From: Spirochaetota bacterium | Lineage (GTDB): Bacteria; Spirochaetota; Spirochaetia; Treponematales; UBA12059 | Direction: 5' to 3' | Assembly: GCA_022703505.1 (NCBI GenBank) | Contig: JAKLDN010000003.1 | Coordinates: 310,001-374,000 of the forward strand | DNA: 64,000 nt | In this document: in pieces, positions 3,819 to 10,670 of the stretch | Layout of the letters: the number at the start of each line of letters is the position of its first letter | Position numbering within the stretch: position 1 is the stretch's first letter | Position numbers and translations under genes: made by a program | Notes under the pieces: model-generated | What the model was told of the DNA's origin: nothing | The model's input: the letters and a program-made list of their open reading frames with translations, nothing else | Database searches by the model: none

Positions 3819-4178
3819 TCAGGAGGCGCGGAGGGACCGAAGGGCGTCCTCGATGTCCTTAGGCATGAGGGGTTTGACCAGGAAGGCCGCGGGCTCGGTT
3901 CCGGCCGCCGCCGCGGCGGTATCCGAGTCGTCGTAGGCTGTTGTGAAGATCACCGGGGCGCCGCCGGTTTCCCGGATCTTCCGGGCGGCCTCGATCCCCG
4001 ACATGCGGGTTTCCATGCAGATGTCCATGAACACCAAGTCCGGCCGCAGTTCGCGTTCTTTCTGGACACAGGAAACCCCCGAAGAGCAGATGGCCTGCAC
4101 CTCGTGCCCGAGTTCCCGGAGCACCGCGGCCAGGCCCATGGCGATGAGACGCTCGTCCTCCGCGATGATGATCCTCAT
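3819..4178 (-). CDS. Single-domain response regulator (receiver only)
   Basis: A 119-residue CheY-like receiver with no output domain. Acidic residues E7, D8 and E9 start the fold, D52 in FMDICM is the phosphoacceptor, T79/T80 the switch threonine, and K102 the conserved lysine in VKP. The motif [11 protein letters not shown] after the aspartate is typical of receivers paired with HisKA_2 kinases. Its ATG overlaps the kinase stop by 4 bp, so the two are a cognate pair. With no output domain it must act by protein contact or as a phosphate sink. Confidence 0.93.
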
Positions 4179-5377
4179 CGTCCCAAGGCCTCCCGAGAAA
4201 GGCGCACCTCAACCCGCAGCCCGGGTTGTCCGTTCGTCCAACGAACATCCCCGTAGAACTGCTCGCACAGGCTCCGGACAATGGACATGCCCAGGCTCTC
4301 ACGGTCCGTACGCTCCGAATCCGTCGACAGTCCGGGGCCGTCGTCGGTGAGGGCAATATAGCAATTCGACTCATCGCTGTCGACCCGTATATCCATCCGT
4401 CCTGTAGTACTGCCCCGGAAAGCGTATTTGACGGAATTGGTGATCAGTTCGTTCAGGATAAGGCCGATGTGGATACCCGCGCTCAGGCTGACCCGAAGGG
4501 TCCCCATGGAAAAGGTCGGCACGATACCGCACCCGTGGCTCTCCAGGATGGATCGGGTCAGCCGGGGGATATACCGCTCCAGATCCACCGAGGAAAGGTC
4601 GTCGGCGGAATAGAGCTCCTCGTGGACCAGGGCCATGGAGGAGATGCGCCCCCGGGCCGTGAGCAGGGCCGGGGCGGCCGGTGATCCGGCGTTCTGCTGG
4701 CCCTGTAGGTACAGGAGGCTTTCGATGATCTGAAGGTTGTTCTTGACCCGGTGATGGATCTCCTGGAGCAGGACGTTCTTTTCCTCCAAGGCCGAGCGAA
4801 GCTGCTCGCGTTCCGCCAGGAGGTCCTCGGTCCGGCGACGCACCGTGTCCTCGAGCTTGAGGTACATGAAGGAGTTCCGCAGGACCAGGGCCAGGACCCC
4901 GGACAATCGATCCAGGCTGACGAGCAGGTTGCCCATGCTGTGGCGGTCCAGGATGTCCAGGAGTAGGAGGGCCCCTACCTGTCCTCCGCCGTACCGCAGG
5001 GGCACCAGGATGCTGGGGCCGAATCCCGCACCTCGGAGCGCATCGCGCACGGCGGCATCCCGAGGATCGCCGGCATCCTCTCCGGGATCGACGAATCGGG
5101 AAGCGGCGAACCCGTGCGCGGCTTCCAGGAGCGTGAGTATCTCCCGGGATTCCGCGGTCGTTCTCCTCCGGTCCGGGACCGCGGAGATGAGCTCGTGGGC
5201 ATGGGAATCGCTGAACTCGGAGCATTGGAACACCAGCACCGTCTTGACCCCGACGATCTCCCGGATCCGGCCGGCGAGATGGGTGGAACAGGCCCCGGGA
5301 TTGTCCGACCGGCTCAGGATCTCCTCCAGGAGGTCCGCGAGGAGGAAGGAAAGGGCATTGTTCTCGGATCCGGTCAT
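4175..5377 (-). CDS. Sensor histidine kinase, GAF-like plus HisKA_2 plus HATPase
   Basis: A 400-residue kinase with no membrane segment, so it is cytoplasmic. Residues about 25-165 look like a GAF sensor domain, including [20 protein letters not shown] coiled linker (175-200) follows. [11 protein letters not shown] places the phosphoacceptor at H208 of a HisKA_2 dimerisation domain. The ATPase domain has N309 in [21 protein letters not shown] near 345-350, and SLGMSIV near 361. It overlaps the DUF1638 gene upstream and the receiver downstream by 4 bp each, tying a two-component system to a corrinoid gene set. The GAF ligand is unknown. Confidence 0.92.
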
Positions 5378-6027
5378 GTCGCATCCCCCTCGCGAAGGGC
5401 CGGATCATCCCGTGTCCCGCCGGACAGCCGGGATTCGAGGTCCGACAGGGCCTTGCGCAGGGCGGATTCCAGGTTCCCGAGTCCCGCCGCCTCGATCCGG
5501 ACGGGCATGCCGAAGAAGGCTTCTATCTCCGCGAGGATGGCATGCGGAACCGGCACGACCCCGGTGTCCACGTACGCCAGGGCCTTCATGGAATCGGTCA
5601 TGAATCCCCGGGCTGTTTCGGAATCGCCGAGTCCAAGCTCCGCTTGGAAGACCTCGCGCCACCGGGCGGTCCATTCCGGCATGAAGAGGAACACTCCCTG
5701 CCTGCGGAGGTTCCTGTACCGTTCCCGGCCCAGGACGATCTCGCAGCAGTTGACCCCGGGGATGCGGATGAGGCCGGTCCCCTCGCTGATCTCCCGCATC
5801 CCGGGGGAGCAGTCCCCGAACACCAGGATCGCGGGGGCGCCGGGGGCGGAATCCAACAGGCCGTGCAGGCCGGACTCCAGGTCCAGCGGCCGCATATGTA
5901 GGATCGAATCGAGGATCACGATGTCCAGGCGCGCCAGCAAAGCGGGCGGGAGGGCCCCGAGTTCCTCCCGGAGTATCCCGCAGGAGAGGACCCGGACCCG
6001 GGCCCGCGGGATTCCGGGTAGGCTCAC
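5374..6027 (-). CDS. DUF1638-family protein
   Basis: A 217-residue protein matching DUF1638 by pattern: CGILREEL near the start, [40 protein letters not shown]-like FMPEWTARW, and [10 protein letters not shown]. The paired cysteines in NCCE and GDC suggest a metal or corrinoid-related site. The frame is open further upstream, but GTG 6027 overlaps the upstream stop as GTGA and leaves the conserved start intact, so I use it. DUF1638 genes are often found beside UroD-like methyltransferases and corrinoid proteins, as here. No reaction has been assigned that I can name. Confidence 0.85.
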
Positions 6028-7040
6028 GAGCCGCGCCCCTGCAGGATGTCGCGGACGAGGGTAAGCCGGTCCGGGGGGGTCCAGGCGGGAAGCTCCGCCC
6101 CGCTGTTCGCGAAAATCCACCGCCGGTCACCCCTCTGTGCCTCCACCAGGGCCCTGAGGGCGCCGGAGAGAAAATCCCGGGAATAGGCGTCGAAGCAGGG
6201 GCCCAGGATGTTGCCCAGGAGGACCGCCTCCGGCCCCGCGAGTTCCCGGGCCCGGGAGAAGCTGTCCTGGGCCCCGATGGCGAATCCCGCAAGACCGGGC
6301 AGGCCGGTATAAAGGCCGATCCTGTCGGCGAACGCGGTTCCTCCGTGATGGAGAACTACGGGCAGGGGGCAATCCCGGAGCGCCGACTCCAGGACCGGCA
6401 GGGCCGACCTGCGGATGTTCCTCTCGTCCAGGATGCGGGGATTCGCGAACATCATCGGCATGACCAGGATGGATACCCCCGCGTTCCGGTAGGCTTCGGA
6501 AAGGGACCGGAAATGATCGAGCGCCTTCGAGAACAGCCTTTCCGCCACGTCGGACCGGAAGAGCAGGGTTTCGATCCATTCCTCGATCCCGACCAGGAGG
6601 GCGGGCAGGTCCGTGGGTGCGACGATGGGGGCCGCCACGATCCGTTCCGTCCCGAAGGCCTTCGAGCAGGCCACGGAAGAGTCGACCAGGAAATCCAGGT
6701 ACCGATCGGAACCGGGCTTGGGATCCCGGCCCGTCAGGGCGTCCTCCGCGGTACGGAAGGGAGGCTGGCGTACGTTGGGCACCGAGTCCTTCTGGGGAGC
6801 CAGGGCCGCGCCGAAGGCTGCGGCCTCGAAGGCGAACACGAAGGGGGTGAACACGATGTCCGGGTCCAGCAGGTCGCAGACGGCCCCCTGACCCCGGGCA
6901 TACAGGGCCGGGTCCCCGTAGTATTCCCCGACGGGGGTCGAGGTGAGGGAAGCCCCCAAGGTACAGCAGGCCAGTCCGTAGGGAGGCCGGTCGTAGGGCT
7001 CCCCGCGGAACAGGGCCGTCACCCGTTCCACGGGTTTCAT
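6024..7040 (-). CDS. UroD/MtaA-superfamily methyltransferase homologue lacking the usual zinc cysteines
   Basis: A 338-residue TIM-barrel protein of the uroporphyrinogen decarboxylase family, the group that contains MtaA and MtbA methylcobalamin:CoM methyltransferases. The N-terminal MKPVERVTALFRGEPYDRPP is characteristic. MtaA-type enzymes bind zinc with HxC plus a distant Cys. Here the first site reads H231-H232-G233-G234, and the C-terminal site reads NSGAE (312-316) with no Cys, so the classical site appears lost. It overlaps the corrinoid protein and DUF1638 genes by 4 bp. Function may be methyl transfer with other ligands, or sensing. Methyl acceptor unknown. Confidence 0.88.
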   Translation of the reverse strand: MKPVERVTALFRGEPYDRPPYGLACCTLGASLTSTPVGEYYGDPALYARGQGAVCDLLDPDIVFTPFVFAFEAAAFGAALAPQKDSVPNVRQPPFRTAEDALTGRDPKPGSDRYLDFLVDSSVACSKAFGTERIVAAPIVAPTDLPALLVGIEEWIETLLFRSDVAERLFSKALDHFRSLSEAYRNAGVSILVMPMMFANPRILDERNIRRSALPVLESALRDCPLPVVLHHGGTAFADRIGLYTGLPGLAGFAIGAQDSFSRARELAGPEAVLLGNILGPCFDAYSRDFLSGALRALVEAQRGDRRWIFANSGAELPAWTPPDRLTLVRDILQGRGS

Positions 7041-7762
7041 GTCCGGGCTCCGTCCGGCATTCCGGCATCATCCCCGGCAGCGCTCTCGGTATCGCTGACG
7101 GGACCGCTGGCGGCGGCATTATCACAGAGTGTCCGGAACAGGGCGGGGGCGTCCATGGCGCTCGAGGCGGTGCCGTCCCCTCCGACCTCCTTCACGAGAC
7201 CGGGGCGCATGTTGAACACCGCCCCTCCCACGGCCAGGGGAAGGACCCCGGACAGGTTCCGCCGGTCGAGTTCCTCCCGCAGGCCCCGGATGTTCAGGGC
7301 CGTGGACAGCATCATGGCGGAAACCCCGATGATCCGGGCTTTTTGTTCCAGGGCGGCATCCACGAAATCCGCGGGGGAGACGTCGTTTCCCAGGTCCACG
7401 ATCTCCCAGCCGTCCAGGCGCAGGAAGGACGCGACCATCTTTCGGCCCAGGGCGTGGAAGTCGTCCTCGATGTTGCCGAGCACGGCCACTCCCCGTGGAG
7501 GCGCCGCGGTGCCCGGGTCCCCGTCTTCCAGCGCGGCCTTGAGCACGTTCTCCGCAACCTTTCAGGCGATATAGCTCTGGGCCAGGGAGATCGTGCCGTC
7601 GATCCACATTTTGCCCGTCCGCTGAAGTACGGGTTCCAGGTAATTTCGGATCACCGCGGGGTATCCGTCCCTCCGGGCGGCGTCCGCGAGGCGTTTCAAG
7701 GCGGCCTCCAGGCTGGCGTCCAGGATCTCGTTCAGCAAGCCTTCAAGGTCGTACTCAGGCAT
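7037..7762 (-). CDS. Corrinoid (B12-binding) protein with an in-frame UGA at codon 67
   Basis: One continuous reading frame of 242 codons broken only by TGA at 7564-7562. Before it lies a helical cap domain (residues 1-66, ending ISLAQSYIA). After it, KVAENVL continues the last cap helix and leads into a cobalamin-binding Rossmann domain with the lower-ligand motif D101-x-H103-x-x-G106 (GNIEDDFHALG), GVSAMML and AVGGAVF. ATG 7762 follows GGAGAGG. Either the UGA encodes selenocysteine, or one base change (for example GGA to TGA) broke the gene, or it is a sequencing error. The gene heads the methyltransferase/DUF1638/kinase/receiver operon. If UGA stops translation, the two pieces are residues 1-66 and the B12 domain. 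Confidence 0.75.
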
Positions 7763-7938
7763 GTCCTCTCCAATAGGATGATGCTTCCGTTGATGTAAGT
7801 ATGAAGGAGTTTCCCGAAATGTCAAAACCGCCCAGGTCCGGCCGCTTGTCTTTCCCCTCCACCGACATATACTTAGCGCAAGACTTAGATTACCCTGAGC
7901 GGTAACCTTCACCTTCGATCCCCCCGGAGAGGCAGGAG

Positions 7939-9027
7939 ATGGTCCGGAATTCCCGAGCCCTTGAAGAGTTGATCGATCACCCCGATACGGCCGCCGGGCG
8001 GGCCCTGGACTCGCTCTTCGAACTCCGGCCGGACCTGAGGCTCCGCTACGACGAGAGGAGCCTCCGCCTGGCCCGGGAGGACATGGCCCACCATGTCCGA
8101 AGGTTGGCCCAGTCGGCCCTGTCCGGAGAAGTCGATTCCCTCAAGGACTACCTTTCCTGGCTCAAGGTCCTGTTCCGCGGCCTTCCGTTGCCCGACGAAC
8201 TGATCGCGGAATCCCTCCGTTGCGCCGCCCGGGGGGCCGCCGGTTCGTTGAAGGATCCCGACGCCCGCGTGATCCTCGAACTCGGGGAGCTCGCCGCGGA
8301 ATCCTACGCGGGTCTGGACGCGTATTCGAGCCGGTACGGAGGGCCGGGGCCCGCTCCGGGCACCCCCGTCCACGCCTACGTCCGGTCCCTGGTGGACGGG
8401 CGGCGGGACCTGGCCGGGAAGGTGGTCGAAACCGAACTCTCCCGGGGCCGTTCGGTCCGGGACCTCTACCTGGACCTCTTCCAGCCCGCCCAGCGGGAGA
8501 TCGGCCGACTCTGGCATGTCCGCGAGGTTTCCGTCGCCCAGGAGCATTTCGCGACCGCCGCCACCCAGTACCTCATGTCCGAGCTGTATCCCCGCCTAAT
8601 TTCCCAGTCCCGGCCGAACGGCCGGGTCCTGGTAGCGGCCTCCGCCCAGGGGGAGCTGCACGAGGTCGGCATCCGCATGGTGGCGGACTTCTTCCAGTCC
8701 GACGGCTGGGATTCCCGGTACTTCGGGGCGAACCTCCCCGCGGAGTCCCTGCTCGCCGAAGTGGATCGTCTGCGTCCCGACCTGATCGCCCTGTCCGCGA
8801 CCCTCCCGGAGAACGTACGATGGATCTCCCGGGTCGTGGAGGCCCTGCGGGCCCGGGGACCCGGCCGTCCCGCCGTCCTGGTCGGGGGCCTTCCGTTCCT
8901 GGTCTCCGAAGGGCTCTGGCGTCGGATCGGTGCGGACGCCACCGGCTCGGATTGCCGGGAAGCCCTGGTAACCGGCAACCGGATCGCCGCCGAGCGGTCC
9001 GGCCCGGACGGGAAGGCCCGGACGTGA
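7939..9027 (+). CDS. B12-binding sensor with CarH-type photoreceptor signature, no DNA-binding domain
   Basis: A 362-residue soluble protein. Residues about 143-220 form a B12 cap (four-helix) domain and 227-345 a cobalamin Rossmann domain. The cap contains W192-H193 followed by E202-H203, exactly the Wx9EH spacing of adenosylcobalamin photoreceptors such as CarH, including the extra His that becomes an axial ligand after light. The lower-ligand motif is E239-x-H241-x-x-G244. Residues 1-135 are helical and of unknown role, and there is no MerR DNA-binding domain. The stop overlaps the GTG of a diguanylate cyclase, so the likely output is c-di-GMP. Light sensing is inferred. Confidence 0.85.
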   Translation: MVRNSRALEELIDHPDTAAGRALDSLFELRPDLRLRYDERSLRLAREDMAHHVRRLAQSALSGEVDSLKDYLSWLKVLFRGLPLPDELIAESLRCAARGAAGSLKDPDARVILELGELAAESYAGLDAYSSRYGGPGPAPGTPVHAYVRSLVDGRRDLAGKVVETELSRGRSVRDLYLDLFQPAQREIGRLWHVREVSVAQEHFATAATQYLMSELYPRLISQSRPNGRVLVAASAQGELHEVGIRMVADFFQSDGWDSRYFGANLPAESLLAEVDRLRPDLIALSATLPENVRWISRVVEALRARGPGRPAVLVGGLPFLVSEGLWRRIGADATGSDCREALVTGNRIAAERSGPDGKART

Positions 9028-9635
9028 CCCAGGAAGAATTGCTGGAAGAGTTTTCCCGGATGAACAACGAGCTCATCAACACCAAGCGGGAACTCCTGCG
9101 CCTGAACCGGGAGCTCGAGGAATCATCCCGGATCGACCCCCTCACGGGCCTAAGGAACCGACGGTCCTTCGACGAGCTGGCGGATCAGCACCACAAGGTC
9201 GCCGCCCGGGGGGGAGGCTCCTTCGCGGTTCTGTACTTCGACCTGGACGACTTCAAGAGCGTCAACGACCGGTTCGGCCACGCCGAGGGCGACGCGGCCC
9301 TGAAGGCCGCGGCGGGGATCCTGGCCTCCTGCTTCCGGGCCGGGGATATCCTGGCCAGGATCGGTGGGGACGAGTTCATCGCCCTGCAGGCGAACACGAA
9401 ACCTGGTTCCGTGGATACCCTGACGGGGCGGATCCGGGCGGCCGCTCGGAACTGGAACGAAACGTCCGGCAAGCTCTGGAGCATACGGTTTTCCATAGGC
9501 GGCGCCGAGTTCGACACCGCGACCTGCGAGAGCCTGGCGGAGCTGATCGACCGGGCGGACGAGGCCATGTACCGGGATAAGCGGGGAAAGAGCCGAAAAC
9601 CCGACGAACTTGACGGTGCGGACCGCCCCGGGTAG
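9024..9635 (+). CDS. GGDEF diguanylate cyclase
   Basis: A 203-residue protein with a short coiled coil (about 5-35) and one GGDEF domain that makes c-di-GMP from two GTP. DPLTGLRNR (38-46) opens the domain, FDLDDFKSVND (72-82) gives metal ligands, and the active site GGDEF is intact at 114-118. An RxxD inhibitory site (R105-D108) lies five residues upstream, so product feedback is expected. GTG 9024 overlaps the B12-sensor stop as GTGA. The protein has no sensor of its own, so it probably depends on the upstream B12 protein. Confidence 0.93.
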   Translation: MTQEELLEEFSRMNNELINTKRELLRLNRELEESSRIDPLTGLRNRRSFDELADQHHKVAARGGGSFAVLYFDLDDFKSVNDRFGHAEGDAALKAAAGILASCFRAGDILARIGGDEFIALQANTKPGSVDTLTGRIRAAARNWNETSGKLWSIRFSIGGAEFDTATCESLAELIDRADEAMYRDKRGKSRKPDELDGADRPG

Positions 9636-9674: not shown

Positions 9675-10670
9675 ATGAAACGAGCTGTCCTCTTCCTCTC
9701 CGTCCTTATTCTCTCCCTTGCCGCCTTCGCCCAGCCCAAGGTGGCCGTGCTGGACGCGGTATTACAGAAGGGCATCGACAAGTCCGCCTCCGCGGCGATC
9801 TCGGAAAAGCTGACGGAGCGGCTCGTCCTGTCCGGCCGCTTCATCGTGCTGGACCGGTCGAACGTCGAGCAGGTCCTGCGGGAGAGGGAGTTCCAGCTCT
9901 CCGGCCTGGTCTCGGACTCCGAGATCTCCGAGGCCGGGAAATACCTGGGGGCGGATTTCGTGGTCGCGATCCGGGTCCAGCGCGTCGACCGTACCTACAT
10001 GGTCACCGCCAAGATGATCGCCGTGGACACGGGGATCATTGCCCGTCAGGCCTCCGCGGAGGGGGAGGGCCGTGCCTCGATCCTGCTGGCCCTGGCGGAA
10101 GAGGCCGGGGACGGCCTCGCGGGCATCGCGCGCAAGCCCTCCGCGACCTCCGACCGGAAGGCGGCGCCCAGGCCCGCATCGTCCGCCCGGCCGGCCGACG
10201 CGGCCTCGATCGGCACCCGGCTCTACGCGGGGCTCGGCACGGGGGGGCAGCATTTGGAAGATAGCCTCGAGTCCGAGACCTACGATACCATCGGGTTCGA
10301 CCTCTACGGCCTTGTCGGCCTTTGGAAGGGGCTCTGCGCGGTCGGCAGCCTGAGCTATCTGGACGGTTCCGCCCAGGGCGGTGGAACGGCCCTGTCCCTG
10401 GATGCGGGCCTGGGCTATGCCCGTCCCCTCGGGATTCTCCTTCCCTGGGTCGCCCTCAAGGCGGGCTACGTCTTCCTGGATTGGTCGCCCTACTCCTCGG
10501 TCCTCTCGGACCTGCAGTACAGCCTGGACCTCGGCGCGGACCTCCGGCTGGGCCGCCTGCTCCTGGGCGGCCGCCTGCAGGTCTCCCTGTCCGCGTTCGC
10601 GGATTCCGGGAGCTACGGGCTCACTGCCCTTCAGAACTCCTTCTGGTTCATGGCGGGCTGGAAGCTCTGA
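9675..10670 (+). CDS. Secreted protein, CsgG/LpoB-like N-terminal domain with barrel-like C-terminus
   Basis: A 331-residue protein with a Sec signal peptide (about 1-19, ending AAFAQ). Residues 22-150 resemble the CsgG/FlgT/LpoB fold: VAVLDAV, then SEKLTERLVLSGRFIVLDRSNVEQVLRE and GADFVVAIRVQR. The C-terminal half (about 178-331) has alternating hydrophobic and glycine-rich strands and ends in a hydrophobic segment, suggesting a small outer-membrane-associated barrel. It is 39 bp after the diguanylate cyclase. A related N-terminal fold occurs in the 45995-47440 gene. Role unknown. Confidence 0.75.
   Translation: MKRAVLFLSVLILSLAAFAQPKVAVLDAVLQKGIDKSASAAISEKLTERLVLSGRFIVLDRSNVEQVLREREFQLSGLVSDSEISEAGKYLGADFVVAIRVQRVDRTYMVTAKMIAVDTGIIARQASAEGEGRASILLALAEEAGDGLAGIARKPSATSDRKAAPRPASSARPADAASIGTRLYAGLGTGGQHLEDSLESETYDTIGFDLYGLVGLWKGLCAVGSLSYLDGSAQGGGTALSLDAGLGYARPLGILLPWVALKAGYVFLDWSPYSSVLSDLQYSLDLGADLRLGRLLLGGRLQVSLSAFADSGSYGLTALQNSFWFMAGWKL

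Follow-up and report, generated by a model that had tools for sequence, protein, structure and literature searches.

A photocobilin-type photoreceptor probably coupled to a separately encoded diguanylate cyclase in a spirochaete genome

A spirochaete genome of 3.66 Mb, whose close relatives with names are Spirochaetota metagenome-assembled genomes (MAGs), carries two overlapping genes; the first encodes a photocobilin, which is probably coupled to a diguanylate cyclase, the separate product of the second. The reading that we prefer, and in which we have fair confidence, is that the standalone photocobilin signals via the N-terminal coil of the separate GGDEF cyclase to change its output of c-di-GMP. 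Schneider et al. reportedly described the photoglobins, a group of bilin-binding globins, in 2022. What appears to be new here is the natural split pair, with its conserved and specific connector and its modulo-7 spacing; the 2022 photoglobin survey may already list such operons.

The gene pair and its AdoCbl signature

The window, by which we mean the whole stretch of 64,000 nucleotides that was analyzed, corresponds to bases 310001-374000 of contig 8. The first gene (7939..9027, forward strand) encodes a photocobilin-type photoreceptor of 362 aa, with an N-terminal globin followed by a B12-binding domain, as judged from the open reading frame (ORF), Pfam, HMMER, AlphaFold, and structural matches. 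The second (9024..9635, forward strand) encodes a diguanylate cyclase of 203 aa that has a coiled coil and a GGDEF domain and is without a separate sensor domain. The coordinates and motif positions that an initial annotation had given for 7939-9635 were right when checked on the sequence, and the stop codon of the B12 gene does overlap the start of the GGDEF gene, as had been claimed: the TGA at 9025-9027 and the GTG start at 9024 form a GTGA stop/start overlap (9024..9027, forward strand) consistent with translational coupling. In spirochaete relatives the photocobilin and partner genes overlap or sit close together (spacing of -1 to +17), and the pair is kept within the genus, with cyclase identities of 77-80%.

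The cobalamin-binding part of the first protein consists of a four-helix region (aa 142-222; 8362..8604; Pfam B12-binding_2 at 146-216, with the helices present in the model) and a Rossmann-type B12-binding domain (aa 229-343; 8623..8967; Pfam B12-binding at 231-343), both on the forward strand. A CarH-type adenosylcobalamin (AdoCbl) signature with a light-switch histidine had been proposed for this protein, and motif search and HMMER alignment recover every published element of it, including the equivalent of CarH H132 (H193). The upper-face signature G189xxW192-H193-x8-E202-H203 (8503..8547, forward strand) has nine residues between the Trp and the Glu, and the Rossmann-type domain holds the lower-ligand motif E239-L-H241-E-V-G244 and G263-x-x-x-P267 (4 of 4 SignatureFinder elements). 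When aligned by HMMER with Thermus CarH, W192-H193 fall on W131-H132, and E202-H203 and H241 fall on the corresponding residues. GxxW-x9-EH occurs a single time in the six-frame translation of the whole window, and residue shuffles of the 362-aa protein yielded Wx9EH in 0.7% of cases and the full signature set in 0 of 200,000; the signature is therefore not a chance match. The protein has no MerR DNA-binding domain, again as first described: its N terminus is a globin, and Pfam gives no MerR match.

The designation of H193 as a light-switch histidine stands only in part. H193 aligns with CarH H132, but a histidine at this position is not required in the family, since it is found in 13 of 76 full-length homologs, 56 of which have Gln, and we rejected H193 as a family-defining switch because His is the minority state. 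In the two photocobilins whose structures have been solved, this position is occupied by Gln and by Tyr (PMC11796333). His is kept in 8 of the 9 rows of the GGDEF-partnered spirochaete clade, so that these photocobilins may have a bis-His light state like that of CarH, which would not be typical of the family. The invariance of EH in the same 76-homolog scan is partly built in, as the search pattern covers EH.

Corrinoid methyltransferase components of the MtaC/MetH type belong to the same B12-binding superfamily, and methyltransferase genes adjoin the pair, so that such a component might have been misread as a photoreceptor. We find this hardly credible in view of the Wx9EH motif, the globin domain, the signaling partners present in most relatives, and the matches by sequence and by fold, in both of which photocobilins come first and MtaC and MetH rank below them.

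The cyclase ORF is a single GGDEF domain (PF00990, E 1e-37; 9132..9593, forward strand). Its A-site GGDEF motif lies at residues 114-118 (9363-9377), and the inhibitory RxxD motif, here RAGD, lies five residues upstream at 105-108 (9336-9347). Pfam found no sensor domain in the 203 aa, which bears out the earlier description of a GGDEF protein that has active and inhibitory sites and no sensor. Two features had been missed, namely, the globin in residues 1-125 of the first protein and a conserved coiled coil in residues 1-36 of the cyclase. Genome-wide, the host has 25 GGDEF matches and 8 matches to PilZ receptors.

The globin domain and its chromophore

Residues 5-125 of the first protein (7951..8313, forward strand) are assigned to the bilin-binding (photoglobin/phycobiliprotein) type of globin by profile search, AlphaFold model, and VIA matches. 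By sequence, the PDB entries that match the 362-aa protein best are the photocobilins 8j2w, 8j2x, and 8j2y, not CarH, and weaker matches place residues 6-119 on allophycocyanin. In a profile search with residues 1-125, the C-terminal globin of 8j2x/8j2w came out on top (E 4e-8), followed by dozens of phycobiliproteins and the biliverdin-binding smURFP. AlphaFold modeled the whole protein with a pLDDT of 94.5 and a pTM of 0.89 and the globin alone with a pLDDT of 95.6. The top structural matches of the whole model are photocobilins (Z 25-25.7), aligned over the B12 domain. With the globin-only model, the best 50 VIA matches are all bilin-binding proteins (phycobiliproteins) or designs (Z 14-16.7); the solved photocobilin globin is not among these 50, though it is the best profile match, and its absence there carries no evidential weight. 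Judged by sequence and predicted structure, the 362-aa protein is a photocobilin, i.e., a photoglobin combined with a CarH-like B12 domain, with the globin first. Either domain order is known in photocobilins, and the globin-first order has already been recorded as a group (PMC10979010).

Membership in the photocobilins makes a second chromophore site probable for this protein. The key biliverdin contacts of SasPcob, the photocobilin of Saccharothrix syringae, are Asp270 and Trp296 (PMC10979010). In the HMMER alignment, D48 (8080..8082, forward strand) corresponds to Asp270, which contacts a biliverdin pyrrole and is the conserved Asp of phycobiliproteins, and W74 (8158..8160, forward strand) corresponds to Trp296, which contacts the biliverdin D ring; the SasPcob numbering takes account of a six-residue offset between the chain index and the paper and is anchored by W61, the Trp of Wx9EH. 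D48 and W74 are the sole invariant residues of the globin region among the 76 full-length homologs, which represent many phyla and were collected by B12-domain patterns, so that this invariance is not built into the search. Among 14 spirochaete orthologs gathered without a pattern, W74 does not vary and D48 hardly does. The contacts are not absolute for photocobilins at large, as AbPcob carries His where SasPcob has the Asp. The Cys used for covalent attachment in phycobiliproteins is absent, with A45 at that position. Trp296 of SasPcob also touches the corrin, whereas Asp270 is not known to have a second role of this kind (PMC10979010); by analogy, a corrin contact could explain the conservation of W74 without a bilin.

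Heme oxygenase (PF01126) was found in none of 12 spirochaete carriers (the host and 11 others) and in 4 of 12 non-spirochaete carriers, in one of them weakly; heme oxygenase of the PF14518 type was not found in the host. HutW/ChuW, which acts in anaerobic heme degradation, was rejected as a bilin source, as the host matches reach 142.9 against a cut-off of 400 bits; these matches probably represent different radical-SAM proteins, active in the metabolism of heme or porphyrins. Our results thus raise the question of invariant bilin contacts in bacteria without a detected heme oxygenase: either they scavenge the bilin, or the pocket takes a different tetrapyrrole, or its conserved residues serve another purpose. 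For the other cofactor, the host encodes a PduO-type adenosyltransferase (AdoCbl-forming).

The failure to find a heme oxygenase of either family in the host also agrees with a different explanation, in which the same residues serve a chemical signal and the supply of AdoCbl (apo versus loaded), not light, tunes c-di-GMP to the availability of cobamides. A corrinoid-protein/URO-D methyltransferase/DUF1638 cluster adjoins the photocobilin gene and is kept in two congeners, and loading with AdoCbl alone brings the cyclase activity of the published photocobilin AbDPcob below that of the apo form (PMC10979010). This type of corrinoid-status sensor seems unlikely to us: the W/E/H residues that face the adenosyl group, like the two bilin contacts, do not vary from phylum to phylum, and an intact bilin pocket in the globin is not expected of a pure B12 sensor.

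The connector coil and its output partners

The coiled coil of the photocobilin partner spans residues 1-36 of the cyclase (9024..9131, forward strand), with the core N14-N-E-L-I-N-T-K-R-E-L24 at 9063-9095, and is common to GGDEF and histidine kinase partners; the helix consensus across partner classes is S-R-L-N-N-E-L-V-N-x-Q-R-E-L-A-K-K-N. It is present in 73 of 78 proteins encoded downstream of photocobilins. These partners were picked by an ORF heuristic, and some of the 5 picks without the coil, for example the aldehyde dehydrogenase of L089 and the SnoaL protein of L094, appear to be neighbors with no relation to the photocobilin. We scanned 393 genomes of the phylum, 97 relatives, and 12 carriers from other phyla, together no more than 447 distinct genomes, with a strict DNA pattern for N-[NS]-E-L-[IVM]-N-x-x-R-E-L. 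The pattern gave nine distinct matches, all of them directly downstream of a photocobilin, and the reversed-pattern control gave 0. Seven of the nine were placed just downstream of a photocobilin by tblastn, and those in the L080 and L115 genomes have coordinates within partner genes, assuming that the numbered contigs are the fetched records.

Measured from the motif, the phospho-acceptor His lies at a distance of 33 in 39 cases and of 40 in 10, and the D-x-L-T of a directly joined GGDEF domain at 24 in 3 cases and at 31 in 2, so that the two values of each kind differ by exactly one heptad; the heptad rule fails for a minority of kinases whose linkers are longer (65, 72, and 164). Outside the GGDEF-partnered spirochaete clade, most partners are histidine kinases (48 of 57 and 12 of 22 in two alignments, by HATPase_c), often with a PAS-like domain of ~140 residues ahead. 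On the photocobilin tree, the nine spirochaete members that are followed by a GGDEF gene group together on a single supported branch. The label GGDEF has to change three times on this tree, so that outputs have been swapped while the coil stayed the same. Most GGDEF partners of the spirochaete clade have a PAS domain between the coil and the GGDEF domain; in the genus of the window, the PAS domain is missing and the bare coil and GGDEF domain remain.

Conservation of the coil beside the sensor shows linkage, not contact, and adjacency of genes alone is no proof of interaction. The two genes might be merely cotranscribed, the photocobilin acting elsewhere and the cyclase being constitutive or otherwise controlled, and the coil could be a plain dimerization helix for any GGDEF protein or kinase. 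We give this little credence, less than to a corrinoid-status sensor, because every genome-wide coil match is specific to photocobilin neighbors, because the coil is kept while outputs switch between histidine kinase and GGDEF, and because a standalone photocobilin activates a diguanylate cyclase (DGC) in trans (PMC10979010). We infer instead that the coil is the docking site for the photocobilin.

A broader proposal, which we put forward tentatively and with somewhat less than even confidence, is that the N-N-E-L-x-N-x-x-R-E-L coil acts as a plug reserved for standalone photocobilins. A single light sensor would drive interchangeable histidine kinase and DGC outputs in trans via a shared helix, with the coil-to-output length fixed modulo one heptad, and the conserved globin pocket of spirochaetes in which heme oxygenase was not detected would use a scavenged or non-biliverdin tetrapyrrole. 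If this is true, a short helix and two soluble proteins could be enough to place c-di-GMP under the control of light, and a helix already exchanged in nature between kinase and cyclase outputs would provide a ready-made rule for optogenetic design.

Several partners have additional features. The ~140-residue N-terminal domain shared by kinase partners (such as L065:7199-8395 and L069:4120-5322) carries a C-D-x-x-G...D motif, and only a few members have a Pfam PAS match. Partners in Hymenobacteraceae (L115:6994-7506, L129:7002-7493, L130:7067-7585, and L131:6953-7504) end right after the coil, consisting of the PAS-like part and the coil (164-184 aa) with no output domain, as if they were pure adaptors. 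Lokiarchaeota MAG contigs (L090 and L093) encode globin-first photocobilins and coil-bearing, kinase-like partners.

Proposed signaling and relation to known photoreceptors

According to the reading that we prefer, the dark photocobilin would hold AdoCbl with H241 below the cobalt and with the adenosyl group surrounded by W192, E202, and H203, and would probably dimerize. The N-terminal coil of the cyclase would dock on it and be kept in one register or oligomeric state. Light would break the Co-C bond, the adenosyl group would leave, and the E202-H203 helix would move; a bilin in the globin, if available, could widen the sensitivity to red light. Photolysis would thereby alter the state of the coil, which would be passed in phase to the catalytic domain and change the output of c-di-GMP. 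We infer the sign of this response, a rise in the light being more likely by analogy with AbDPcob. AdoCbl loading, photolysis, and trans activation by this pair are likewise suggested by published relatives. AbDPcob is a photocobilin-DGC fusion with light-activated synthesis of c-di-GMP; with AdoCbl bound, its DGC activity is low in the dark, and light raises turnover >10-fold (PMC10979010). Standalone photocobilins, when lit, activate an isolated DGC in trans in vitro in a concentration-dependent manner (PMC10979010). The initial annotation had regarded c-di-GMP as a new output for this sensor class, a claim that is wrong, as both the fusion and trans activation were published in 2024 (PMC10979010).

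AbDPcob (PDB 8J2Y; PMC10979010) resembles the present system in its CarH-type AdoCbl domain, globin, and GGDEF output. It is, however, one polypeptide with the B12 domain before the globin, whereas here there are two genes and the globin comes first; it has Tyr where this protein has His at the H132 position; and its bilin Asp is replaced by His, with weak binding of biliverdin, whereas Asp48 is kept here. SasPcob (PDB 8J2W/8J2X; PMC10979010), the best PDB sequence match, is also a standalone combination of globin and B12 domain, and its Asp270 and Trp296 align with D48 and W74. Its domain order is reversed, however, it has Gln at the H132 position, and the partners proposed for it are of the STAS/SpoIIE type rather than an overlapping cyclase gene. 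CarH/LitR (PDB 5C8A/5C8D) shares GxxW-H, EH, GxxH, and GxxxP, with H193 aligned with the bis-His ligand H132, but has a MerR DNA-binding domain, is without a globin, and has transcription as its output. In photoglobin/BBAG-2 (PMC10151467), a globin of the phycobiliprotein superfamily is also tied to a B12 domain and is without the attachment Cys of CXRD (A45 here). Those globins are separate proteins associated with heme oxygenase and B12-binding proteins, whereas the globin here is fused and heme oxygenase was not found in the genome.

The regions flanking the pair are partly conserved. Upstream, a divergent cluster (3819-7771, reverse strand) encodes a corrinoid protein, a URO-D-type methyltransferase, a DUF1638 protein, a HisKA_2 kinase, and a response regulator. 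In congener G001 the first four genes of this cluster stand beside the photocobilin gene, and a short contig of congener G002 has the corrinoid, URO-D, and DUF1638 genes. The gene for the corrinoid (MtaC-like) protein (7040-7771, reverse strand) has an in-frame TGA at about 7562-7564. Selenocysteine was considered for this codon and dropped, as both congeners carry Gly at the position (SYIAGKVAE); from the sequence comparison, the TGA is presumably a nonsense mutation or a sequencing error. Downstream, ~40 bases past the cyclase gene, lies a gene for a CsgG/LpoB-like protein (9675-10667, forward strand), which is again directly downstream of the pair in G001, with 76% identity.
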